Assembly (NCBI GenBank): GCA_025435555.1
Contig: JAIWWG010000031.1
Location: forward strand, 62,001-126,000
Reading direction: 5' to 3'
Length of the DNA stretch: 64,000 nucleotides
Origin: Chytriomyces cf. hyalinus JEL632
Lineage: Eukaryota; Chytridiomycota; Chytridiomycetes; Chytridiales; Chytriomycetaceae
Part shown: in pieces, positions 47,317 through 62,795 of the stretch
How positions within the stretch are numbered: position 1 is the first letter of the stretch
Layout of the letters: each line of letters opens with the position of its first letter
Notes under the pieces: model-generated
Databases searched by the model: none
Seen by the model: the letters and a program-made list of their open reading frames with translations, nothing else
What the model was told of the DNA's origin: nothing
Position numbers and translations under genes: made by a program

Positions 47317-47892
47317 TCAGATAGAAACCAAGAAACAGAGCGGTTTCTTGCGCTTGTGTCGCGCCAGGCAATGCTCGGTCCGAAAGACTGCGCTGCAGTC
47401 CAGACAATGGACGGGACGTACCCGGCAACGCGTGTGCCTCTCATACCTGCGAGTAGGGACGCATCCGCATGGGCTGTGCGCTTGGCTGCCCTGAAGAGCA
47501 TGGCATTTGCTAGTGTCGAAAGTTGGCAAGCACGAATGGCTGTGATTGAACATGCTTGGATGTCGTGGGCCCGCCGTGCTTGGCTGCTGGGTATGTGATT
47601 TCAAGTGCCCACATTCTGCCTTCTTTTGACTGATTCCAAGTCCTGCAACGCTATTTGGACAAGTGCTCCTGCTGCCATGGATAATTAGTTTTGTGGGAGT
47701 CAGAATTGCGGATTTGAAGGTCCTGTTCAAAACGCAAGGCACCTTTTGGAGTTCTCCACAACGATCCGTGGGCCCGACGGAGTATCTTGCACGTGAGAAC
47801 CAGAGTCCAAAATACGAGTTTCTGATTGTGTCGATGTTGCAGACATTGAAGGTTGCAGCTTGGCAAGCCGATCTCTGACCATGTGCGGACAT
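47317..47892 (-). pseudogene. Degenerate C2H2 zinc-finger copy
   Basis: A single unspliced frame ends (before 47317) with an intact last finger, PVHCLDCSAVFRTEHCLARH followed by KRKKPLC. It aligns with the terminal finger of the next gene (PCVDCNRKFRTEAGLARH..PVC), including the unusual final Cys. Upstream in the same frame are eroded finger-like pieces: VPCVLNRTFKSAIL (second Cys lost) and FDTSKCHALQGSQAH, resembling the Q-K-C-x-L finger. No proper finger 2 with T-T-N-N-R is found. Either a decayed paralogue, or a real gene whose exons I cannot resolve. Confidence 0.35.
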
Positions 47893-48968
47893 GGACCAGG
47901 ATCAGTGGAGCGCTGGATGCAGCGGAAATGTACATCCACGCTTTCATTCAAACCGAGGCGAAATGGATCCGAGAATGCAGCCGAACCCTTCAGTGTGCTC
48001 AACTGAGCGGTGGTGGCTGGCCCATTTGGAACAGGAGCCGGCTGTCTGGACGCAACAGATGGCAACACACATGCGCACTGGTGGCTATTATGAACCCAGA
48101 TATGAACCCCCTGCGCACAGTGCATTCGAGCCGTGGGGGGTTAATGCGACTTGTGCGTTTTGGAGGCAATGGGGAGTGCGTTATCAAAAAATTAATTTTT
48201 TTGCCGCCGGAAGTAAATTCATGCGAACAACAATGACGAGAGTATATACGCCGACTTCAAGTGTCCCCGTGCCAAGTGTCTGCACCTATGGCGTGCAGTG
48301 GTTGGAGAATAGGCAGCATTGGCTGTGCTGCTGCCGTGGACACCAAGCGTCATCTCGAGCGTAAAGATGGTGAATGAATGAAGCGTCGTGAATACCCGCA
48401 GTCATGCATGGATGTGCTTACGATGGGCATGCAGGCTGTTTGGCATGTGCTCGGAGGCCGTTGCGTCGCTCTGGTAACCGTGTCCAGGTGCTTGCCTCAC
48501 ATTGAGTCACTTGGAAAAATTCCCGCATGCTCGTTCCGAGGGCGGCGAATGCAATTCTAAGCGAAAACGAATAAAGTGCAAACAGTCATGGACTGCGCAC
48601 GCTCAACATCGCCAACAGCGCAGCAACTCCCGTACTCTGTCCTTGCAATGCCGGACAACAACACGGATCTGCTCTCGCTGTTGCACGAACCATATCCCCT
48701 CATACCTGCACACCTAATTGGACACGGATCTGCTGCAGTTGCTTGAAGGGAAGCGGAGGATACGGTTGGATGTGAGTCGGGATGTTGCCGTGTTCGGGGC
48801 ATGAAGCTGTGCCCTCTCGCAGAGATGACTTCGCCCGTTAAAAGTAAAATTGTGATGGCCAAGAAAAAAAAAATTCAATTTTCCTCTTTTTCGCCGCCTC
48901 TTTACATGAAGCACCCCCATCATCAATCCACTTATTTTTTGCTTCGGTGAGAACCTTTTGGGAGAAAG
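47893..48968. other. No supported gene; possible remains of the zinc-finger copy
   Basis: About 1.1 kb between the degenerate copy (-) and the next zinc-finger gene (+). ORFs on both strands are short and Cys/His-rich in places (minus strand near 48250-48330 and 48600-48860), but no C2H2 spacing is intact. Confidence 0.4.
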
Positions 48969-49946
48969 ATGCACCACACGTGGACCAGCGAGCACCACCA
49001 CCACCACCACCACCACCACCACCACGGCCTTCTGCCGTTCCTCTCGGACCCGCTTCTCTTCAGCGCTGATACGGACTTGTGTGATGACACGGAAGAAGGC
49101 GACACGGAGTCGGACGTCTCCGGCGGCCTCTCGAACATTGACTGGACCCAATGCCGGCAAGATACGCTCACAAGCCCGTTGATGCATCCGGATCACGCCT
49201 TTCTCGACTCCATCTGGAACATTGAATCCATGCCGCAACAAATATGGACCGCCCCCGCCGCTGAATATCCTATCTTCTTGGACCCGGTGTCACTCAAGGC
49301 GGATATTGCCCCAACGCCTATAACGCCGCCCACCGCAAAGTATGCCATGATTTCCCGATCGTATAAGATTTAAATATATTAACCGATCTCAATCTGTTTC
49401 TCAATCCAGGAAACAAGCTCGGATCTTCAAGAACTTTCCGTGCCCGGAATGCAGCAAGGTCTTTCACTTTCCGTCGCTTCTCGCGGAACACGCTCGTTCA
49501 CATTCTGGGGAGCGTCCATTCGTATGCTCAGAATGCGATAAATCATACACCACCAACAACCGTTCGTAGTTTTCCCCCTGTTTAATTTTTTTTTTAAAAA
49601 AATTAACCCGATGGTTTAAAATTTTCTCTTTGCCGAATTTCAAGGTCTCAAAGTGCACATGCGCATACACACAAATCAGAGGCCCTACTCTTGTCCACGC
49701 GAAGGATGTACTTACAGTGCAAAGCAGGCCAGCGACTTGAAACACCATTCCATAATTCATTTGCCGCCAGACGAGAAGGAACGTGTCTTGGATCAAGTAC
49801 GCCGAAATTATCCGTGTGTTGATTGTAACCGCAAGTTTCGCACTGAGGCCGGCCTTGCGCGTCACAAGCAAGCAGCACCCGTTTGTTTTACAAATCGCGG
49901 TGGAAAAAGGGGAGGAGGTGAAGGAAGAGGAGGAGAAGGAATTTAG
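48969..49946 (+). CDS. C2H2 zinc-finger protein (cluster member A), poly-His N-terminus
   Basis: Predicted DNA-binding protein of 274 residues. Exons 48969-49339, 49410-49561 and 49645-49946, all in frame. The head has a run of 11 His (from a CAC repeat, after TWTSE) and an acidic stretch DDTEEGDTESD. Four fingers follow: CPECSKVFHF..LLAEHARSH; CSECDKSYTTNNRLKVHMRIH; CPREGCTYSAKQASDLKHHSIIH; CVDCNRKFRTEAGLARH with a final Cys (C2HC). A Gly/Arg-rich tail ends the protein. The second intron splits the Arg codon of N-N-R (C|GT). Linkers GERPFVC and TNQRPYSC are standard for DNA-binding fingers. Target unknown. Confidence 0.75.
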
Positions 49947-50617
49947 GTCGTCTTCCAGTTATAATCTTTTCTTATTATTTTTCACGGACCTTTTTCTCAT
50001 TTTCATGCCTTCAGTGTTTGTTTGTTTTTTTTATTACTCATTTCCCTTTTTTTTTTTTTTCGCTCCTTTTGGCGGGTCTTTTCGACCATTACGATAGAAA
50101 CGCTTAATAATATACATACTGCGACTGCCCTATTTTTGAAAGGATTGTTTTGGGCATCAAGGACACTGCGTTTTAATGCAATGAAAGAAGCAGAATCCTG
50201 CACCATGCATGCGAAAAAAAAAAAAAAAAATTCCTTTGACCTCTTTTTGCTTTCGAGTTTCTTGCTGCATGCATAAATGGGCGTTAGGCATTTTGCGCTC
50301 TTGAGCAGCGCATCTTTCGTTTATTTCTCGGCAAGCAGGGTTGTGAAAAATTAGCAATTGTTGCAGTATATGTTTTAAGCGCAAGACACAGCTTGAATAA
50401 CCCAGAAAAGAAAAAAAAAAAAAGAAGCGAGAAAAAGTGGTCAGAAGTCTCGTCCTTCATTAATTCGCCGGCAAATAATGATGATAGCTCGCAAAGAAAA
50501 AAAAAATGGAGGGCGTTAGAAACCACTCCAATCGCAGGTCATTAATAAATAAAAAAAATACAAAAAAAAAAAAAAAAGGGAGAAGAAAGAGGAAAGAAAA
50601 TAGAATTAAAAAACATA
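49947..50617. other. AT-rich intergenic stretch with A/T runs
   Basis: About 670 bp between two convergent zinc-finger genes. Runs of T (50048-50060) and A (50215-50230, 50408-50421, 50499-50507, 50563-50577) dominate. No gene seen. Confidence 0.6.
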
Positions 50618-51787
50618 TTATAATTCAGGATGAGTCTTGATACGATGCAGCCGGAGGCTCTCATTGGTCTTGTAACACTTGCCGCACTCTTCGCAAGGAA
50701 TCTTTCGAAGATTTTTGGGACGCAAGACTTCCTTGTCCTTGAGAGACAAGTGTACAACCTGGTGATCCTTCAAATCGCATAGCTGCTTGCCTCGATAGCT
50801 GCAACCAGGCTCCGTGCAAGGATAGCATAATTCTCTTGTGTGTCCGCGCTCATGCACTGTCAATCGGTTCTTGGTTTGAAACGTCTTGTTGCACAGGGCA
50901 CACTCAAAGGGACGCTCTCCTGTGTTTGTTGATCATTTAGTTATTGTCGCCAATGAATGACGGAAGCAGCTTTTTTGGTAAAACTTTTGAGTTGATAAAC
51001 ATACCTGTATGCACACGCAAGTGCACGGTGAGTCCCGCTTTGAATTTAAACGTCTGTGGACACTGAGGATATGGGCACGGGAATTTTCGAAGTCTGTTGG
51101 AGAAAATTTTTCAGTTTTTTAGATTTTTTTAAAATTGTTTTGCCAAACGGTTCACGGAAAAGAAATTCTTAGTAAAGCAACACGGAAGTGGATCGAGGCG
51201 TGCAAGTCAGTGCCAGGGCTGACGTGCGTATGTTTGCTGTGGAGGAGGGGGGGGAGGGGAGGGGAAGAAGAAGGAACTCACTGCTGGCGGTGTATTGATG
51301 GCGCGGGGGTGTCTGATACGACCGATTCACAACCGGTGAGAGACGGTGCCGGTGACGACGGCACGTGATCCACTTTGGTCATGAAGACGAGATCATCGTG
51401 TACAGCAGCAGCAGCAGCAGCGAGAGCGTTCGTCGCATCCAACAGCGGGAACGCCGGCCGTGATCCCATGAGGTCAGACAGTTCCGGGGCTGAAAACACC
51501 AAGACGTCGCAAGGAGTGAACGGATTGATGCCGATCCAAGGCAGGCAGTACGTTGTCATGTCCACTGTTGAGAATGGATGCCATTGAGTGAGCGCGGGTG
51601 ATGGTCGGTTCATAGTTTGCGGATGATTTTGCGAAAGAGTTTTTCTTTTTCCGTCCTTCCCATGCGAAAAACGGCGACATCCGAAAGTGACGGCCGGGAA
51701 AATCGTATTGAACACTTGAGCAAGCCTACCTTGGTGAGTCATCATGGTCTGCGACACTTTCGTTCGATGTTTTGTAGCAGAATGCAT
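50618..51787 (-). CDS. C2H2 zinc-finger protein (cluster member B)
   Basis: Predicted DNA-binding protein. Exon 1 runs from 51787 to about 51284 (poly-Ala run in NALAAAAAAVHDD, Ser/Pro-rich end). Exon 2 is around 51095-51005 and exon 3 about 50920-50618. Fingers: CPYPQCPQTFKFKAGLTVH; CALCNKTFQTKNRLTVHERGH, where the signature is Q-T-K-N-R-L in place of T-T-N-N-R-L; CTEPGCSYRGKQLCDLKDHQVVH; CEECGKCYKTNESLRLHRIKTH. The charged linker KDKEVLRPKNLRKIP lies before the last finger as in the other members. An intron falls in the HTG/ERP linker between fingers 1 and 2. The exact start is uncertain; a further intron inside the long first exon is possible. Confidence 0.7.
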
Positions 51788-52229
51788 GTCGACTGAGGGG
51801 GTAATAGTGCGGTCCCCTTTTATGGCATTTGCTGCCGAGACCAGGATCCGTTCCTTTTAGCGTGAAAGTAAAATCCGAGTGGCTCGTGACACTAGCACGC
51901 ACTTTCTCTGTCGTCGACCGCAAGCAGTGCTCCATGCGCACGCACGCAATACATGCACACACGCATGTCTATGAACACTCTCTGGTTTGGATGATGTTCT
52001 GATTCTGAACAAACCAGGGTTGGCATCAGTAAAAATTGTCTGGGGCTGGTTGCCACTTTTTCTCTCCGTTTGTCATCTGATGACTCAACGAACACTCTGC
52101 GTGCATCGGTTCTCACTGGAAGCACACGAACCAATATTATTGTTTTATTCTTATTCCAGCAACCACGGTCACAGCGAGTCGTTATTGTTATTGGGGTATC
52201 ATGTATCAGGGCTGGGCAGAATCGCAACG
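51788..52229. other. Intergenic stretch, nothing identified
   Basis: About 440 bp between zinc-finger members B and C, both on the minus strand. It would hold the promoter of member B. ORFs present are shadows without features. Confidence 0.5.
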
Positions 52230-53449
52230 TCAATGATGCTGCTGGAATGGGGCCAAGTGATCAGAGGGTCAATATCTAGTTCTGGGGACAATGCACGCAA
52301 GCAAATAGCAAGCGTCGTAACAGGCTTTACCTGTCTCCGGTGTAGCTCCAGCGACTTTTCAGTCTTGTAAAGCTTGCTGCAGACAGAGCACATGATCGTG
52401 CGCTTGCGACTCGACTTGATGCTCCGCTTCTCATCTGGCGGCAAATGCGTCAACTGAAAGAGGACCGGATCAGTAATCACTTTGTTTAAATATAATTTTA
52501 AATTTTTTAACCCGATGGTTTTGCAGCGAACACTTTTGTGTTGCGCTGTAGCCGCATCCCGCTACTTCGCACACGTAAGGTCGCTGATTTGTGTGTGCTC
52601 GTTTGTGAATAGTTCTGATGGGTGTGTTGCTTGTTAAACAACGAGGCATCTGGCAATGAAAAGCGCGCTTACAATCGATTATTGGTTGTGTAAGCTTTCG
52701 CACATATATCGCAGACAAAAGGCTTCTCCTCTACAACGCGTCTTCATTAGTATAAATCAAGCGCGCAATCGAGTGTAAAAAAGGGGGAGCGCTTACTTGT
52801 GTGAGTGATGGAATGCTGTTTCAGTCCCGACGAGCTTGAGAAGCAACTCGCGCACTCTGGGCATTTGAATGGTTTCGCTTTGGGAAGATGTCGTTGTTCC
52901 GGCGGTGATCCCAGCAGCAGGTTGGCCAATTCGGCTGCATCGATTTCCGAATGAGGTTCTAGGGTGACACGCAAATTATTTTTTTTGGAATGTCAGTGGG
53001 CCAGTGTTCAACTGCTTGAACCATTTGGTGAGTGTACCATCGCGCATCTGCTGATTGGGCAACAGCGCCGCATTGGGCGGAAGTGCGTCAGGGAGAGTGC
53101 TGGAAGAGTTGATGCTCATGGCATCGAGGGCTGGTATCGATGTGTATGAATGCGACGGCAGCGTTGATTGCACAGGATGCTCGGCCATCATGTGGAGCTG
53201 CATATCTTGCGGCGTTGAGAAGACTTTGGAGCAAGTGTGGTATGGACAGCAGAGTAACTGCGGTGAGGAAGTTCTTGCCAGCAAGTCTGATATGGAGGGG
53301 AGTTTCGGTGATCTCTCTGCGGACGAGGATAAACGCTGATGATTCGGCGCCTTTGAGAGCAAGTGCGCATTTTGGATTGAAACGGGGGCCTGTGGCAGGT
53401 GAGGTAGTTTTAAATGCCGCGAAACTTGCAGCGAGTGATACTGCAGCAT
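52230..53449 (-). CDS. C2H2 zinc-finger protein (cluster member C)
   Basis: Predicted DNA-binding protein in six exons. Exon 1 (53449-53038) carries a possible extra finger CPYHTCSKVFSTPQDMQLHMMAEH and a Ser/Pro-rich stretch. It joins EPHSEIDAAELANLL and finger CPECASCFSSSSGLKQHSITH. The next exon encodes CDICAKAYTTNNRL, splitting in the Leu codon (TT|A). Then TIHKRAHTNQRPYVC with CEVAGCGYSATQKCSLQNH, then LTHLPPDEKRSIK and the last finger CSVCSKLYKTEKSLELH. The end RRQQHH followed by stop at 52230 requires one more small intron. A block at 52601-52704, intron included, is nearly identical to member F. The divergent partner is member D, 308 bp away. Confidence 0.72.
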
Positions 53450-53757
53450 TGGGATGTTCGAAAACAGGTTTCAGGGTGCAAAAATACAAAAGACCAGGCG
53501 TTGAACACTTGTTGATGAAAAAATATTGAACAACAGAAAGGGCGAGTTTGCTCAACTCCTGTTCTGGGTGCGTGGAGGTTGAGCTGGCTCGGAGGGTTCG
53601 AAGCCGCGCCAGGTTCAACTGCCGCAGACTTGTTGACCTGCACAGCACACACGCACAGCCATCAGCTGCTCAAGAGCCAGTCAGGCTCAACTCCCCCAGC
53701 GTCACGCACGGACCCACCCTCTCTGTAGGTCACTAACGTGCACACAGTTCAAACAAA
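53450..53757. promoter_or_regulatory. Divergent promoter region, zinc-finger members C and D
   Basis: 308 bp between two divergent start codons. No clear TATA box. Shared control is inferred from spacing. A similar 292-bp arrangement separates members G and H. Confidence 0.4.
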
Positions 53758-54883
53758 ATGCCCGTTTCGCTCAGTTTGTTCTGGGATGAGATGCGAAATT
53801 GTTTTGTTAAACACTGTTTTTTGGATGGTTGGAGATGCAATTCGAATTCGTGTGACAAACACACGCCGCATCAATTTCGAGGCCAGCTGAACTCAACCCC
53901 AACTACCATGTCCTGCTCACCTCTCTCACCAAGTCAACGGGCCCTTTACACGGACGCAGCCCTACTCCCAGCAATCCCTCACAGCCATGGTCCATCCCAC
54001 CTCTTTCAGCTATCTATGCAACCTCAAACTGCAAACATGAAGGACAATCAGAGGAATCCCCGTCACGAAACAAGTCATCCTGATCTTCACCTCGCAGTGC
54101 ATCGAACCCCTCCTGTGGCTGCTGGCCTACGCGAATGGACTTTAGCTGGAACTCAGCATCACCATCACACCAGCTCCTCTCCAAGCGCATGCAGCAGCAG
54201 CAGCAGCAACAGCACGCCCCAATGCCTGGAATCTAAAACACCAAGCGTATTCTCAATGCCTGGATCGAACTCAGCATTCGGCGCAGTGTCTTTTGCATCC
54301 ATGTCCGAGTCTCCTGCAAACCCTAGATTGGCGGTCGAGACCGTTGAACACTCCTTTGAAAAAAGGAAGCCCATTCGTATTTCTATCTCCCAGCTGTGCG
54401 ACAATGTGGAGGAGGAGGAGGAGGTCAGCAGCATCGTCCCTATAGAGGTTGCTTCATACACTGTATCACCGTACGCCGGTTTACCAAATTTCGATACCTC
54501 CTCACAAGAAAAAGAAAAGCTTTTACAAACATCACCAGTCTCTTCTGGCGATTCAATTCGTAACGGGCTAGAAAGTTGTGAATCCGAAGGGGAATATGCC
54601 GACAGCGCGAGGCAACGGGCGGCACTGTGTGTTTTGGCGGCTGCTGCTGCCGAATCCACGTTTGGTGGCTCATTCAAAATACCCACTTCAAAAAGAATTG
54701 ATGCTCCGTTGCTGTGCAGCAGCGGCTCGAAAAAGTTTTTGTGTGATTTTGAGGGGTGTCTTCGAACGTTTGCAAGTGGCGCTTCTCTTCGATCGCATGT
54801 GATTTGTCACACGGGTGCAAGACCTTTTGTTTGTGAATATGAGGGATGCAACAAGTCATATACGACAAATAATCGTGAGTGGA

Positions 54884-54921
<38 letters not shown>

Positions 54922-55258
54922 TTATTTATTTTTTTTTGTGCCCCTTTTCTTCCCCCAATGTCTTTTACTCATAATATTCCCTTCAGGTTTGAAAGTGCAC
55001 ATACGTCAACACACAAACGAGAAGCCTTATGCATGCGAATTTCCTGGCTGCGACTATCGAACAACCCAGAAATGTTCACTGACGCCTCACATGGTCCGAC
55101 ATTTGGATGAACGAGCAAAGAGAGAAATCAAAGCAAAGAATGAGCGCAGCGTTCCTTGCACACATTGCGGCAAAACTTACAAGAGTGTTATTTCGCTGAA
55201 CCAGCACTGCTTCAAAGATCACAATACTTCAGTGGAATGGAGCCTGAAACAGCAGTGA
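53758..55258 (+). CDS. C2H2 zinc-finger protein (cluster member D)
   Basis: Predicted DNA-binding protein of 462 residues in two exons, 53758-54874 and 54987-55258. A disordered head contains poly-His (THQHHHHTSSS region), poly-Ser and an acidic EEEEE run, then an Ala-rich helix LAAAAAEST. Fingers: CDFEGCLRTFASGASLRSH; CEYEGCNKSYTTNNRLKVHIRQH; CEFPGCDYRTTQKCSLTPHMVRH; linker ERAKREIKAKNERSVP; CTHCGKTYKSVISLNQH. The intron splits the Arg codon of N-N-R (C|GT), exactly as in member A, and contains a 34-base T run. Reading through the intron would add a long Phe run, so the intron is certain. Confidence 0.8.
54886..54919. repeat. T34 homopolymer inside an intron
   Basis: A run of 34 T inside the intron of zinc-finger member D, just after the donor. 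It may serve as an extended pyrimidine tract. Its length is open to sequencing error. Confidence 0.9.
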
Positions 55259-55588
55259 TATCCCTTTCCAAAGACCCAAATGAGTTGAAAATCATGTTAA
55301 ATTAAATATGTTCCTGGAGTACTTCTCTTTATGGAGAGACTGAATCAAAAACGAATCCAGAAGATGGCTGGTAGAAAAGCGTGGATATTACGAAGCCAGT
55401 GTAGAGCAATGTCTACAAGCGTCGGGAAATCTTTGCCAAGGTTACATTTTCAAAAGTGGCCTCTCCGTGAACATCAGTTAAAACTCAATCAGAATTCGGT
55501 TCGTTGAAAAAAAGAAGCGCTGTTGTATGTACTATACGTGAACTCCATTGTGTGGTTTTTTTTCCATGGAAAATTCATACCAAGAACA
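55259..55588. other. Intergenic spacer between members D and E
   Basis: 330 bp between two co-oriented zinc-finger genes. An in-frame Met at 55523 could extend member E upstream (VLYVNSIVWFFFHGK), but the hydrophobic extension looks unlikely. Nothing else seen. Confidence 0.4.
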
Positions 55589-57000
55589 ATGGCGGAAAAC
55601 CTCCCAACCCCTGCCCACAAACACCACCACCAGCTTTACCCGGCCAGCAATTGCACAGACTACGGATCCTTTACGCACTACGCGCCGCCAGACTCAATGT
55701 ACCGAACTAATCCGTGGAACTGCCCGCAAGAATGCCGCCCGGTTCCTTACCTCCATCAGTGGCACCATACACATCCATCGCCACAGCAGCAGTTCGTGTA
55801 CTACGATCCAGCAAGTCAGGTACATTCGAGTTTCTCACGGCCATATACCCCAGTGCACTGTGGCTGTGGGCATGTCGGACCTCGCTCTGAGGAGCGCGTC
55901 GCGCATCCAAGCATGCCTGTCTCGTCCAGCAGCTTGTCCAACGACCCCTCTCCGCCGTTATATTCCCATTCAGTCGATTATCACGTGGACCAACGGTCAA
56001 TGACTGTCCACGCGAACCAATCAAATCCAATCCAAAAATGGCACAATTACCAACCCACAAAGAAATCATCGCTGGCGCCTCTTTTGAACTACCCACTAGA
56101 ATATCCAGAGTACGAGTCGCGATCAGAGGGAGAGTCCCTCCAGTCTCCGCGCAACGACTTTGACGGTCATCATCCGAAACCTTTTGAAAACTCGTCACCG
56201 CAGGACACCAGAGTTTCAATCGCAAATCTTTTGTTTCCGATCGAACACGACAGAACAGTTGATGACGGCGACAATTCCTCCGGTGGAGAATCTGTTGAAC
56301 AACAGCAAGTGACATTCGCAGTTGTTGTCAATGCACCAAGGAATGAGCAAAAACCAAGTCTGTCTCTCCTGCACAACTACTTTTAAATTTCTTTTTCGTG
56401 TATCTCAACCAATTATTATTTCCCTTCATGTAAAAAACAACTATAGGAGCGAGGAAAAACATTTGCACTTACCCTGGATGTGAGAAAGGATTCACTTCGA
56501 ACGCAGGGCTTCGCATTCACGAGGCCATTCACACCGGCATACGGTCTCATTTGTGCGTCGTTTGCGGGCGGTCATACACAACTGCAAATCGTGAGAGAAA
56601 AAAGCTGTCTCCCCCGCAATGCACTAAATTTTCGTCTAATTTTTTTGGAAAACAAGGATTAAAGGTTCACTCGCGGTCACATTCAGGGGACTTTCCTTAC
56701 TCTTGTACTTTTCCAAATTGCGATTACCGCGCACCGCAGAAATGTTCTTTGAGCTCGCATATGGTAAGATTTGACTGCTGTCATGTGAAATTTCCATAAT
56801 GACTGACCCTCCTCTCCACATGACATGTCCGCCACACTGGGTTGGTACAGTTGAAACATTTGCCAGCCCATCAAAAGAAGGAGATTCAAAGTGCCAGTGC
56901 AAGGACGATTCCTTGCCGTTTTTGTGGGAAAATGTTCAAGTCAGAAAAGAGTCTGGATCAGCATTCGTGGCAAAATGTGCGTAAATGCGCTTTTTTTTAA
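55589..57000 (+). CDS. C2H2 zinc-finger protein (cluster member E)
   Basis: Predicted DNA-binding protein of 389 residues. Exons 55589-56357, 56447-56590, 56657-56763 and 56851-57000 all join in frame. The head is Pro/His/Ser-rich (AENLPTPAHKHHHQLYP). Fingers: CTYPGCEKGFTSNAGLRIHEAIH; CVVCGRSYTTANRLKVHSRSH, with T-T-A-N-R-L for the usual T-T-N-N-R-L; CTFPNCDYRAPQKCSLSSHM; linker AHQKKEIQSASARTIP; CRFCGKMFKSEKSLDQH. The second intron splits the Arg codon (C|GA), the same position as in members A and D. The third intron falls inside finger 3 after SSHM. The long unspliced ORF ends at 56386 and misses all fingers. Confidence 0.75.
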
Positions 57001-57280
57001 ACGGTGATTTTATGGAGATTCCGTAACGAGGTTTTTTTTAACTCTAGCATCGCGTCGGTATCCGTCACGACGGCCCGCTTCCAAGTTTCCAAGAGCGATA
57101 AAAAACATACGGAAAAAAAAAAAAAAGAACAAGAATGAAAATACGAATAGCCTCATAATATTTAATAAATTTAATACTGATATTTCGAGAATTTAAAGCG
57201 CACTATGCTCCGCATAGCTCGGTATATTTCGGTAAAATCATAAAAAAAAAAAAGAAAAAGACCTATGTGACAGACGCGGC

Positions 57281-58133
57281 TCAGTTGCCGTGAATCTGTT
57301 TTTGATGCTTCTTCAAACTTTCTTGCGTCTTGTACAATTGTCCGCAGTGCGAACACGGCACTGTTCTCGCGTTTTTAAGCTTAAACTCCCGCTTCTCCGC
57401 GTCAGAGAGATGCGTCAATAAGTGGCTCCGCAACGTGCACATTTGCGTGGCGGCGTATTCGCACTGGTTGCACATGTACGGTCTGTGGTTTGTGCCACTG
57501 TTGAGTATGAAAATAAAACAAGCCCGGTCAGTTGGTAAACAGCCGTCACCTGAGGTTCGAATGCGCCCGTTTGTGAATAGTTCTGATACGTGTGTTGATT
57601 GTTAAACAACGAGGGCATCTGGCAATGAGAAGAAGCTGGAAGTGAGCTTACAATCGATTATTGGTTGTGTAAGCTTTCGCACAGCCTGCGACGGAGCACA
57701 CAAAAGGCCGATCCCCTGAATGTGTCACAGAGTGTGAAGTCAGGCGGGCCTTGGTCGGAAACTCTCTCGTGCAGTCAAAGTACGGGCATGGATACACCTG
57801 CTTCTTTTTGCGCCGTCTTGTTTCAGCGTCGCGCAGAGATGCCGGCGTTGTTATTGTCAATGGGGGTGTTGTTCTTGTTGTTGTGGGTGGGGAACCACAG
57901 TCGAGCGAGTCATCCTCGTGACAAGACAACGGAGATCTTGTGTCCAGATCCGGCGCACGCACCACAGAGTTATTATCGAGCAGGTCGAAATGTAGATACT
58001 GATGGAAGCTGCTGTCCATGAACCCAAACATACTTGTCAGGCTGAGTCCAAATTCATTCGCCACTTGGACAGTTGGCGGCGCGTCTTTCGACGTGACGAA
58101 TGCACCAGGTTGGCTCCCGCTTACTTTGGTCAT
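57281..58133 (-). CDS. C2H2 zinc-finger protein (cluster member F)
   Basis: Predicted DNA-binding protein. Exon 1 starts at 58133 (TKVSGSQPGAFVTSKD). It contains a Thr/Pro-rich stretch and a basic ETRRRKKKQ before finger CPYFDCTREFPTKARLTSHSVTH and finger CSVAGCAKAYTTNNRL, with the intron in the Leu codon. The small second exon reads TIHKRAHSNL, then a further intron, then TNHRPYMC. Finger 3 is CNQCEYAATQMCTLRSHLLTH, linker DAEKREFKLKNARTVP, and finger 4 CSHCGQLYKTQESLKKHQKQIH with the stop just after. The segment 57569-57683 is almost the same as 52601-52704 in member C. Convergent with member E; 57001-57280 between them holds only A/T runs. Confidence 0.75.
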
Positions 58134-59226
58134 TTTCAGGCAAAGCGAAGCTTTGCTCTTTCTATCGATCGGCGAAAACCACTGTTGAAATTTTAGCTTT
58201 TTTCAACGTGCTTGGACAAAGCATGTGGCACAGCGCAACTTTCTCATTATTCCTTCAAACACAGCAGCAACGCGCTTAAATGAAGCGTGACTGGCATGGA
58301 TAACATTGCTTGCAGTCCCTCTTAATCATCAGTGTCGCTGGCTGGCTCGACGTTCTGCAACAAAAGTCAGAAGTGCGCCGTTCAAGTCGCGGTGCGGGAG
58401 CTGAAAAACAGGCTTTCATTCTTACAAGCAGAGGCCGGTTGATTTTCAGGCTGAGAAGACTTGTATTCGAAGCTGCGTTAACCAAAACGGCTCACCGACT
58501 CAGGAATCCACGAAAATATGACAGAAATACAAGGCGTGAGATCCAAAAGCGTCGGGCAAGAAGGGTTATCTAAAACGCCAAAAAAAAAGTAGCAGTAAGT
58601 TAAATACTCGTCTCGGCTGAACCGAAGCTCATTTTAACTTGGCGATGTCCAATGAATGGATCAGCACAACTCGCAATGCATCCATGATGTGGGCCACGGG
58701 TATTCGTTGTGTGTGCCAGGCCCAATTCTTCTGACCAAGATCGATTGCCAAAGCGGCGAGAGAATAAAAATTTTCGTCCGCGAAATTCGAATAGTCTGCG
58801 TGTAAAAACTCTTCCTCATTCAATCGCGTTTTTTGAAGAGTCGAATACCTGGATATACAGATGAAAGAAAAGAGAACGAACATGGTTTCGTACCAATTTG
58901 AAACGAAGTTCCATTGCTATTCAACCTTATAAACAGGAGTCGCATTGCGTGATGAGTAAGAATCAGAAGGTCGAAGGAAGATATTCCTGGAAAGTGGCTC
59001 GGCGCGTTAATGTCGAATTCGCAGGATTCGGAGTTGAATTCGACCAAACTAAACATATGAAAGCGGTTATAAGTAACTACATAAAAAATTGAGGAAGAAG
59101 AAGGAGCTTACATGGGCAGGGGAGCATAACTCGGTTCGGTCGGTCACCTAAATCATTCCCACTCGGAGCTCGGAAAACATGCGCGAGAGAGAAACTACAA
59201 CAAAATAATCCGGGGCAGATAGTATT
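58134..59226. other. Gap in the zinc-finger cluster; one possible small ORF
   Basis: About 1.1 kb. The only coding-like frame is on the minus strand, ending at 58629: EEEFLHADYSNFADENFYS, then LAALAIDLGQKNWAWHT and IMDALRVVLIHSL. Its composition is balanced and it looks like a last exon, since CCAG just upstream (58861) is a plausible acceptor. No start or partner exon could be fixed. Other ORFs look random. Confidence 0.3.
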
Positions 59227-60081
59227 TTATTGAGAGGAAGGATGTGTCTTCAAATGTGCAACTAGATTACATTTTTGTCTGCACCCCAAGCACAATATTA
59301 GTCACTGCGCATCGATACTACACAAAGAGGCAGAATAAAAACTCACCGAGCAGCGTAGCTACAACCAGCATATGGGCAAGTATAGGGCTTTTCACCTGTA
59401 ACCAACGTATAATCAGACTCTCGACAACATAGATGCTAGGATATCTTCGGTTGACTGGATGTACCTGTATGTGTCCGTTGATGAATTTTCCTGCATGATG
59501 AACGGCGCGATGAGATGAAAATGGAGACACGACAAAAAAAAAAAAAAAGGTGAATACAAGCGATTGTTGGTGGTATAGTTCTTCGAACAATTCTCAAAGT
59601 TGCATAAAAAGGGACGCTCTTTTGAATGTGTGTAGGAATGGTGGCGAAGTGCAGACGATGTTTTGAAGCCGTTCCCGCAGTCGAGGCATCTGAACTTTCT
59701 CTCCAGATCCCGCGCCGACGGCTCAGCAGATGATGATGCTGGTGATTCTCGCGAAGGCTGAAGTAGGGCCGGTTGCGGTGGGGTTGGATTTGGATTTGGT
59801 GGCGCCGACTCAAGACAGTTGTTCATATGGGGTTGAACAAACGAGGACCCAGCGCAGCGACTTTGCAGCTCGGCGGACATATAGGACTGCCTTGACAAAG
59901 TATCGCTCATGTCGATGCTGCTGTATAGGCTCGGGTCGATAAGTCGCAGCCAAAAGTCCGGGTCAAACTGCTCCTCTTGTGTCTGGAATGAGAATGGGGG
60001 TGCGGGGGTTTGCGGTTGCGCGTCCGCGCCGCTTTTCCATCTGGACCAGTTACCGTGAGTATCTTCCTTCTCGCGGGACAT
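59227..60081 (-). CDS. C2H2 zinc-finger protein (cluster member G), three fingers
   Basis: Predicted DNA-binding protein. Exon 1 starts at 60081 (SREKEDTHGNWSRW) with a Pro/Asn-rich stretch (SAPPNPNPTPPQP). Finger 1 is CLDCGNGFKTSSALRHHSYTH and finger 2 CNFENCSKNYTTNNRLKIHQRTH, with an intron in the Leu codon as in members C and F. After a further intron comes GEKPYTC with CPYAGCSYAAR, then a final intron and QKCNLVAHLKTH, PSSQ and the stop at 59227. Finger 3 is thus split by an intron after Arg. The fourth finger and charged linker present in the other members are absent, so this copy is truncated or ancestral. Divergent from member H. Confidence 0.72.
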
Positions 60082-60373
60082 GGTCGTGGCTAATAACGGA
60101 AACTAATATCAATTCGTGTATATTTTGTGCAAGCCCTTGCTCGCCATTTATGAACCGCGTTGAACCAAGTCAAAAAAATTCGACCTTTTCCAACGACCGG
60201 CGCGACTAGGCCTGCTGAAAAACGCAGTGCGGGGCGTGCGCCAGAGAACGACAGATCCACGGAGACAGTCGGGACGAGCTCGCAGAAACTCTGGTATTAC
60301 TCGTCTCCATTTTACTTCATTTCTCCTTTTCATAAAAAATCGGTTGAACCGTAATTGACACCTCCGAACACAC
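60082..60373. promoter_or_regulatory. Divergent promoter region, zinc-finger members G and H
   Basis: 292 bp between two divergent start codons. No TATA box or obvious operator is visible. Called from layout only. Confidence 0.35.
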
Positions 60374-62795
60374 ATGAACCACTCTGACGGCAGCCAAGGC
60401 GGCGAGCCACCCTCTGCCAAGCCGATGCCAATGCCAATGTCCATGATGGCTGCGCAGTACAGGGTATCTAATGATGAGCCATTGAAGCCTTACCAGCTGG
60501 GCTAAATGTTCTCCTCTTCCACTCACAGGACTCGCTCATGCCTCCGCCTTTCTCTCTACGCATGTGCAACGAGCCTGTCTCAGACTCCTCAAACCTACTC
60601 ACTGCTGATAACATTTCCCGCTCAACGAGGGTTCCTTCGGTTTCTTCTCCGCCCATACCATATCGCCTCTCACATTCACTCTCGGTTCCGATTCCTGAAA
60701 TAACAATCTCAAACCATGTCGGTGACCAAACGGCGCTGAATCCCAGCCAATTCGAAAACGGGGCGTTGCGCATCAATGCCTCTCAATCTGTGGCGCACAG
60801 TGGGAACTTACTGTGTCCTCCAACAGCTGCTTCTCTTGATTCTTTACTGCTGTCACCGCTACCCGGAACCCCTCATTCACAGTCCTTGTCCGCTTTAAAT
60901 AATGGATTCAATTTAAGCGACAGCTTTTACTTTTACCCGGACCGGAGGATGGACGCAAGCCCCGTTCTCACATTCTCATCTGGCATTCCGCTTTCACCGG
61001 ATGTTGGCAACCATGAATATCTTCATATCCAAGACATTGACGCTTTGGTTGCCGGAAGACCGCTTCCAGTTTCTCCAATGCTCAGTGGCAGGCTTGATAT
61101 GCATCATCCGAACATGCTCTTGCAGAGAAGATCGTTTGACATGGCCCTTGCAGCACCGCTGACTTTGAATCTGGACGGTTTTCAGGAATCTGTGACTGGC
61201 TCGTTGATTCAGTCTCCTCGTCAGAATTCGCCCAGTTCGTTGAACGCAGGAGGCGAGACGTTTTCGTCCAACAGCCTTTTACCCTCATCCAATTATTCCG
61301 AAACGCGACAGAATAGTGGCTTTCTAAGTCCCCATCAGTACATACATCCTGCGCCTCTGTTGCCGTCCATTCAAGACTACAAGAGAAACTTGAATTCAAA
61401 CCCAGAATTCAGCCCTCCAGAGAGCCAAATTCAGTACAGCCAATTCGCGCCAAGTTATTCGGTACCCACTGCGCAATACACAGATTCCTCAAACCCGCCC
61501 GTGATGCATCATTCATCAGTGAGAGGCTCACCATTCGTTCGAGCAGCCTTGGGAAGCCGGCCCCGTTGCCCTTTCCCTGAGTGCCAAGGCATCTCGTTTG
61601 ATAATGTCAAGGGCCTTCAGGCGCACACGCGTGATCATCATCGGGATGGGCTTGGCGATTCTGCCATTGCGAGCGGTGCGTCGGTTGCTGGAGCTGTGGC
61701 TGCAGGTGGTGCTAAACGGGACCGAGACAGTCGCATGAGAAATTCGGTGCTTGGAGTTGATGGGGTGGTGCACTATCAGCAAACGAGAGGAGGGGCGGAG
61801 GGAGCAAGTCTTTCAATGCAAGAGGAACGAAGTGGACTATTGAACCCCAACGGGCAGCTAGCTAATTACACGGAGCTGGACGGATACTATGATTCCGGTA
61901 AGACTGTTTTTTTTCCAACTGCAATGAACAAAATTTATCAACACCTTTTCTTGGCGCATTTAAATTTTTTTGTTAGCTGGTGGGGGAATGGCGAGCCGTG
62001 GAAGCCGAATTGTATCAGTTCAAGTAGTGCCATCGCAAAGCCTTCCACACACCTCTTCCATTGACGAGTCTGCGCAAAACCAATCTCAACAATTCCTCCA
62101 AAACCGTGCTTACATGCAGCAGCAACACAACACAACCGCAATCCCTAACTCTGCGAATTCCACTCCTGATTCCACTCACATGCAATCTGGTCAACCCGCT
62201 CGTGCCCGTTCAGGAGGCAACATTTTAAAACCGTACGTTTGCACGTATCCAAACTGCCATAAATCGTTTGCACAACCAGCGGGACTTCGAAGTCATACCG
62301 TGACACATACTGGGGACAGGCATTTTGTTTGCAAGTTTGAAAATTGCGACAAGCGTTACACGACCAACAATCGCTTGAAAATCCATATGCGTTCACATGT
62401 GAGTTTAGCCTGATGACTGCCTAGTTGAAGTGATCGTTTGGTAACCTGTTCCAATGCGTTAGACGAACGAGAAGCCCTATGTTTGTAAACATCCCGGTTG
62501 CACCTACGCAGCAAAACAAGCATGCTCACTTACGCAGCACAAGCTTACACACTTGAATCCTGAGGAAAAACGAGCTGAAATGGAGAAACGCGCTCGAACC
62601 CTTCCTTGTGCGGAGTGCGGGCGAGTTTATCGAACCATGGAATCGCTTGACTTGCATTCGTGGAAGGAGCACGGAAAAGCAGGGATTGTTGGAATCATTG
62701 TGGCGAATAATGGGGGCAATGGTGATGGCCCAGGGCGACAGCAGAACGGTGGTGGTTCATTCGAAGAGACGGACGCAAGGTTTTCGGAGGAATGA
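60374..62795 (+). CDS. C2H2 zinc-finger protein (cluster member H), longest member
   Basis: Predicted DNA-binding protein of 737 residues. Exons 60374-60463, 60529-61897, 61977-62398 and 62463-62795 join in frame. The small first exon (NHSDGSQGGEPPSAK, then MPMPMSMM) supplies the only good start; the long second-exon ORF otherwise begins at 60538. A Ser/Pro/Leu-rich disordered region fills residues 30-480, with a possible degenerate finger CPFPECQGISFDNVKGLQAH at about 375. C-terminal fingers: CTYPNCHKSFAQPAGLRSHTVTH; CKFENCDKRYTTNNRLKIHMRSH; CKHPGCTYAAKQACSLTQHKLTH; linker PEEKRAEMEKRARTLP; CAECGRVYRTMESLDLH. The intron lies after RSH, not at N-N-R. A Gly-rich tail ends the protein. Confidence 0.8.

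Follow-up and report, generated by a model that had tools for sequence, protein, structure and literature searches.

A cluster of C2H2 zinc-finger genes occupies 47.3-62.8 kb of a 64,000-nucleotide stretch of the Chytriomyces cf. hyalinus JEL632 genome (contig JAIWWG010000031.1, positions 62,001 to 126,000; hereafter, the window). We conclude that these genes probably belong to a family of transcription regulators of the Chytriomycetaceae that arose by old duplication, in which selection holds the recognition helix of finger 2 and parts of finger 3, and whose paralogs share a core binding site. The family is clustered here and dispersed on other contigs; it is old, its shared module is under purifying selection, and its DNA-contact residues are conserved. 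We infer that its products would bind DNA, would do so at a common core site, and would act in transcription. An earlier note, made from the letters of the window alone, had described eight readable genes plus one degenerate copy on both strands, and hand and scripted splicing confirmed this set, which is as follows (window coordinates).

47317..47901, minus strand: copy A, a degenerate relic in which only finger 4 (47335-47406) is clear
48951..49898, plus strand: gene B; N-terminal open reading frame (ORF) by position, 48951-49373; module 49429-49877; intron 49562-49644
50618..51856, minus strand: gene C; N-terminal ORF by position, 51278-51856; module 50627-51089; intron 50920-51004
52199..53470, minus strand: gene D; N-terminal ORF 52976-53470; module 52322-52875, with three introns
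53758..55258, plus strand: gene E; 462 amino acids in two exons, read from the first ATG of the ORF; module 54730-55225; intron 54875-54986
55508..56976, plus strand: gene F; N-terminal ORF by position, 55508-56386; module 56452-56976; introns 56591-56656 and 56764-56850
57281..58202, minus strand: gene G; N-terminal ORF; module 57287-57800; two introns
59236..60102, minus strand: gene H; three fingers, without finger 4; three introns
60478..62795, plus strand: gene I; N-terminal ORF 60478-62064, which contains the first exon; module 62228-62675; intron 62399-62462

Modules were spliced by hand and with a spliced-alignment script that placed a profile of the eight modules on the DNA and admitted GT-AG introns only; the two give different placements of the second intron of gene G. 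N-terminal ORFs were assigned by position, with first exons unproven, except in genes E and I, where a public relative backs the reading. C. hyalinus HDU77_009505 reads across the gene E intron identically and is 95% identical over the module, and public models P0004, P0005 and P0032 read through the module as in the splicing proposed here. The public model of gene I, BJ741DRAFT_533952 (P0001), spans only the last 183 amino acids. Gene I matches Chytriomyces sp. MP71 P0002 at 81%, gene B matches module 2 of C. hyalinus HDU78_005087 at 81%, and the finger-4 DNA of copy A is 75% identical, over 85 columns, to that of C46a (members elsewhere in the genome are named by contig). Intron positions vary between members in the spliced alignment. 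The gene E intron contains a run of 34 T (window 54886-54919), and long homopolymers occur in several other family introns.

The architecture proposed earlier was borne out. Seven of the eight genes (B, C, D, E, F, G and I) have finger 1, finger 2, finger 3, a linker and finger 4 in that order, and H ends after finger 3. The finger motifs also held: finger 2 reads TTNNRL in six genes, TTANRL in F and QTKNRL in C; finger 3 carries Q-x-C-x-L in all but B (QASDL); and finger 4 starts with PC in six of seven (MC in D), is C2HC-like in B and lies downstream of the second intron in F. The sequence TAYACNACNAAYAAY occurs six times in the window versus a shuffle mean of 0.00. All 14 window matches to the canonical C2H2 pattern fall within 49.4-62.7 kb, and a much looser C2H2 pattern has five matches below 46 kb. 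PF00096 was matched by all eight members at E values up to 0.01, with a score of 51.9 versus a curated cut-off of 25.2 bits for gene I, the member for which this comparison was made. An AlphaFold model of P0001 (17 sequences) predicts four beta-beta-alpha fingers with high confidence, and turns the stretch previously called a charged linker into a helix (residues 106-116). Fingers 1-3 of the model superpose on DNA-bound three-finger units, a match of fold only, in comparisons that span mainly residues 15-105; a sequence search with the helix-plus-finger-4 part gave weak C2H2 matches only. Both the finger pattern, C-x(2-5)-C-x(12)-H-x(3-5)-H/C, and the modeled beta-beta-alpha fold are those of the C2H2 superfamily. 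As modeled, fingers 1-3 would form a canonical three-finger DNA-binding unit, with a short helix joining finger 3 to finger 4.

Conservation at the predicted DNA contacts carries the case for a shared site. Over 30 modules (A, C205b, C24, C180 and C101, a near copy of C71, were excluded), the finger-2 contacts are T in 29, N in 27, R in 29 and I or V in all 30, and position -1 of finger 3 is Q in 29. With zinc-ligand columns treated explicitly, contact positions vary less than the rest of the non-ligand positions (1.58 versus 2.13 bits, p 0.02), as they are when hydrophobic-core columns are dropped (1.58 versus 2.35 bits, p 0.001-0.002) or finger 2 is left out (p 0.02); these p values are guides only, because the rows are related. 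The T-N-R helix was found in none of 612 fingers from 113 other proteins, a search-returned, mostly animal set that is not a random sample, and the finger-2 helix is equally conserved in the other genera that carry the family. Selection would thus preserve this recognition helix together with parts of finger 3. With these held, the paralogs would most likely bind variants of a single core site, and finger 1, finger 4, the N-terminal region and expression would set them apart.

The eight window modules are 38-54% identical. Synonymous divergence (dS) and the ratio of nonsynonymous to synonymous divergence (dN/dS) were examined for 18 module pairs, of which three form the young C176 trio, one is C101/C71, with zero synonymous differences, and 14 are others. 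Six of these 14 older pairs are synonymous-saturated, and the remaining eight have dS of 0.60-3.15 and dN/dS of 0.04-0.29. The ratio is below 1 in all 11 pairs with finite, non-zero dS. The family is old, and its module is under purifying selection.

Full-module relatives were found in Rhizoclosmatium globosum, Physocladia obscura, Obelidium mucronatum, Chytriomyces sp. MP71 and strains of C. hyalinus, with a partial relative in C. confervae. Rhizoclosmatium, Physocladia and Obelidium belong to the Chytriomycetaceae, as we take Chytriomyces to do, and at the sensitivity of a word-based search full-module relatives were seen only in that family. Among the 120 of 133 matches listed, 12 (a count that takes in the query) reach 45% identity or more across no less than 85% of the module, and every one of them is from those fungi; the others listed are lower or shorter, chiefly finger arrays of animals and metagenome proteins without names. 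R. globosum has three genes, one of them with two modules, each listed on a contig of 653,319 bases. The outcome that the earlier note had named as fatal to its reading, unrelated single-copy finger families at these loci in other chytrids, was not encountered within the searched material. Two public models contain two full modules: P0006 (Rhizoclosmatium), which may be a true internal duplication, and P0022 (C. hyalinus), which looks like neighboring genes fused by the gene model.

Several points weigh against selection for a shared core site. Finger-1 contacts vary like other finger-1 positions (2.36 versus 2.28 bits), and fingers 3 and 4 show high variability at position 6; site preferences may therefore differ between paralogs. 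The C176 trio, with dS of about 0.3, has a dN/dS of about 0.5. All of these dS and dN/dS values are rough, because they are pairwise Nei-Gojobori estimates, averaged over sites, on only 83-126 codons. Finally, the protein searches reach only relatives that share five-residue words, within length limits.

One alternative is that module likeness stems mainly from ectopic gene conversion centered on finger 2, not from selection on binding. The evidence for it is a set of short tracts, alike across exon and intron.

52594..52704, minus strand: conversion-like tract of gene D, covering the finger-2 helix exon, the intron and the start of the next exon; 84% to G over 122 columns
57562..57683, minus strand: matching tract of gene G, paired with that of D
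62357..62452, plus strand: conversion-like tract of gene I, covering the finger-2 helix and intron; 86% to M, a member past the window end, and 88% to C46f, over 98-99 columns

Within the introns of these tracts, identical aligned bases number 54/58 for D/G, 55/59 for I/M, 57/62 for I/C46f and 60/61 for M/C46f. Intron identity alone is weak proof of conversion, however, because other introns at shared positions also align at about 62%-90% when gaps are free, with more or longer gaps (H/C46d, 57/63; C/C3, 64/77; B/E, 54/81). Third codon positions are more telling for gene I, which keeps 11-12 of 14 in the helix versus M and C46f, and far fewer in the flanks (1-2/13 and 6-10/28). The contrast is weaker for D/G (flank third positions 8/26 and 15/28), the pattern for M/C46f is graded, and helix third positions of H/C46d are also alike (11/14). 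Conversion is the simplest cause of the D/G and I/M/C46f tracts, the alternative being a constrained intronic element. As an account of the module at large, conversion is unlikely: with eight close pairs excluded, codon identity at shared finger-2 helix residues is 1.06 times expectation versus 1.03 elsewhere, no overall excess across pairs, so general conversion of finger 2 is unsupported; the equal conservation of the helix in other genera also speaks against it.

Other explanations of the alike introns were discarded. Introner-like or mobile introns were rejected, the two alike introns being found only in I, M and C46f and in D and G. In the first of them, one stretch of 15 bases has 27 matches elsewhere with a single mismatch; the 15-mer AGCCTGATGACTTCC, which differs by one base from a piece of the gene I intron, occurs at 24 genome places (for example, C1:260715 and C24:392289). 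A structured intronic RNA gave no Rfam match at E values up to 1 across window 46-64 kb, and a small nucleolar RNA (snoRNA), considered for a TGATGA box, which is presumably a snoRNA motif, was dropped for want of a D box.

Animals provide the best-known clustered zinc-finger expansions, many of which are believed to pursue transposons. A second alternative, quite improbable here, is that the chytrid genes are arms-race repressors like those of vertebrate KRAB zinc-finger clusters, with tandem copies shifting their DNA specificity to follow transposons. The clustering, the many paralogs and the variable positions of fingers 1, 3 and 4 would suit such a race. It would not be expected, however, to leave finger-2 contacts near invariant, the pairwise dN/dS below 1 in every pair with a usable dS, and the finger order mostly fixed, without long variable arrays. 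Nor did KRAB, SCAN or BTB have a Pfam match, at E values up to 0.1, in the N-terminal ORFs, as assigned by position, of the eight window genes. In the portion of Emerson and Thomas (2009; PMC2604467) relied on here, vertebrate poly-zinc-finger contacts at -1, 3 and 6 are selected for change, and fly and mosquito expansions lack such a signal. We reject the arms race on contact conservation and dN/dS: contacts diversified by positive selection are not what these modules show.

It is very hard to credit that unrelated finger genes came together by chance, or that duplicated haplotypes in the assembly created the cluster: C101 and C71 (L049, L051) share 5.1 kb at 98.9% identity, family gene included, as alleles or a very recent duplicate, so the assembly holds some such copies, but the C168 members lie on one contig, window modules at 38-54% identity with a family-specific helix are neither unrelated nor alleles, and we take spliced modules, tree and identities to refute both for the cluster.

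Selection on a shared core site thus remains the preferred reading, and the manner of duplication can be followed beyond the window. The cluster continues past its end: contig C168 carries 14 readable members, B to O, at 109.3-147.7 kb, plus relic A, with those past the window end at 131-148 kb. Protein searches and extracted regions put the number of genes with a readable module, partial ones among them, at 29 or more across the genome; the relics A, C205b and C180 are not counted, and the figure is a lower bound, because the search scores only the best candidates. Beyond the 14 on C168, there are six on C46, three on C176, one with two modules on C193, and single members on C205, C71 (near-identical to C101), C201, C181 and C3.

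In a tree of 46 modules from six taxa (A, C205b, C24 and C180 excluded; the first C193 module taken from P0004, not from the spliced C193b row), the 14 C168 rows do not group, and constraining them to one clade is rejected (approximately unbiased test, p-AU 8.6e-6); cluster members are not each other's closest relatives. Well-supported nearest relatives are C with C3 and C181, H with C46d, M with C46f, K with C201, and J with C71; the pairing of E with C193 has weaker support. Fine relations are unsure, since 18 of 42 inner branches are well supported and several rows are long. Near the C181 relative is a sequence with a counterpart some 7 kb to the left of the C168 cluster (70% over 863 bases), and the C176 and C180 flanks have 3.3 kb in common at 86%, which indicates that blocks of DNA were duplicated, introns included. 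The family would thus have grown by old DNA-level duplication, in tandem and as blocks on other contigs, with introns retained. The lineage-specific expansion by local duplication envisaged from the window alone survives as one putative transcription-factor family that expanded within a single family of chytrids; local events do not account for all of the duplication, since C168 members interleave with relatives on C3/C181, C46, C193, C201 and C71.

The original member list was therefore incomplete, and it also missed an additional N-terminal finger in D and I. This finger, F0, stands ahead of the module in seven genes (D, I, J, K, L, C193 and C201), resembles one in MP71 P0035, and has the form CP[YF]-x(2-4)-C-x(2-5)-F-x(4-6)-[LM]-x2-H-x(3-5)-H. 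This narrow pattern had 11 matches in 215 kb of sequence (C198 excluded), all within the zinc-finger family: the seven F0 fingers and, in G, C, C181 and C3, an ordinary finger 1 each. F0 is weak in Pfam, where that of D (53177-53248, in an ORF that also carries an LPSISDLL motif) matches Zap1_zf1 at E 0.00055, under the cut-off, and that of I (61567-61641) had no match in the Pfam scan.

The claim that all N-termini are unrelated stands among the eight window members, where blastp gave no credible N-terminal match (I versus B, at E 0.009, came from another frame), and fails for the family at large: besides F0, the D N-terminus matches MP71 P0035 over 83 columns (E 2.5e-12), and N-terminal stretches are shared by K/C201, C3/C181, M/C46f and the C176 genes. 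The suggestion of fast N-terminal divergence fared better. Compared with C. hyalinus HDU77_009505, gene E is 80% identical at the N-terminus versus 95% in the module region; compared with HDU80_006540, gene I has N-terminal pieces at 93% and 95% and a module identical in the tree columns. These comparisons support N-termini that diverge faster than the module. Acidic-hydrophobic patches in the N-termini are only suggestive, and the best stretches of H and I extend into intron sequence. Gene H is 84% identical to C46d over 83 codons at the amino acid level.

The statement that no other gene could be supported between members stands within 47.3-62.8 kb as far as tested, since ten hand-chosen larger ORFs had no Pfam match; farther right, a calpain gene and a pair of ammonium transporter genes lie between C168 members. 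A tubulin-tyrosine-ligase gene lies left of the window cluster. Within the wider cluster, C168:141.7-145.2 kb (L040) is a tandem repeat of about 71% DNA identity with ammonium transporter genes, and has short, weaker matches at C198:72 kb, beside another finger cluster. Orientations from A to O read - + -- ++ -- ++ -- + - +; the five runs of exactly two have a chance probability of about 0.003, tested post hoc. The second C2H2 cluster, at C198:48-71 kb (L056-L058), has another finger type, with similar matches at C2:558-576 kb and C13:91-106 kb, apparently up to three related places.

Our literature search, with most subscription journals outside its reach, found no description of this family. 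From the parts of the sources drawn on, zinc-cluster factors make up a far smaller share than C2H2 factors in chytrids (PMC5415576), C2H2 factors expanded in the opisthokont ancestor (PMC10406608), and 'C2H2' is absent from the main text of PMC8778642. The kind of family is already known; the constancy of its central helix is the noteworthy point. More tentatively, the roughly 29 paralogs with a frozen T-N-R-I/V helix may compete for or share one core site, split by flanking fingers, N-terminus and timing, with finger-2 conversion tracts perhaps helping to keep the helix alike; if so, the cluster evolves in a manner opposite to KRAB zinc fingers. An old fungal cluster with purifying selection and near-fixed central contacts would offer a second model, in which paralogs retain one binding core, and chytrid biology gains a defined gene set with a sharp prediction of a shared motif.

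Among known systems, the C198 cluster is alike in being a set of clustered C2H2 genes in the same genome, and differs in its fingers, many of which read F-x-R-x-x-D-L-x-R-H. WT1, KLF4 and Zif268 have three-finger DNA-binding units of solved structure; the chytrid module differs in its extra helix, finger 4 and other contact residues. TFIIIA has nine fingers. The C2H2 arrays of Xenopus and yeast TFIIIA are matched by the module profile (1tf6, 8ffz), but the best stretch ends at profile position 84-86, ahead of the linker and finger 4. Insect poly-zinc-finger sets have other N-terminal domains (ZAD). Those of Drosophila and Anopheles resemble the chytrid family in having expanded without evidence of positive selection, in the portion of PMC2604467 already cited. 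The same portion describes vertebrate KRAB/poly-zinc-finger clusters that are likewise lineage-specific sets of clustered C2H2 paralogs, some with short gene-conversion regions; there, contacts -1, 3 and 6 are positively selected, whereas in the chytrid family, which has four fingers as a rule and no KRAB match in the window genes, the finger-2 contacts are among the most constant positions.

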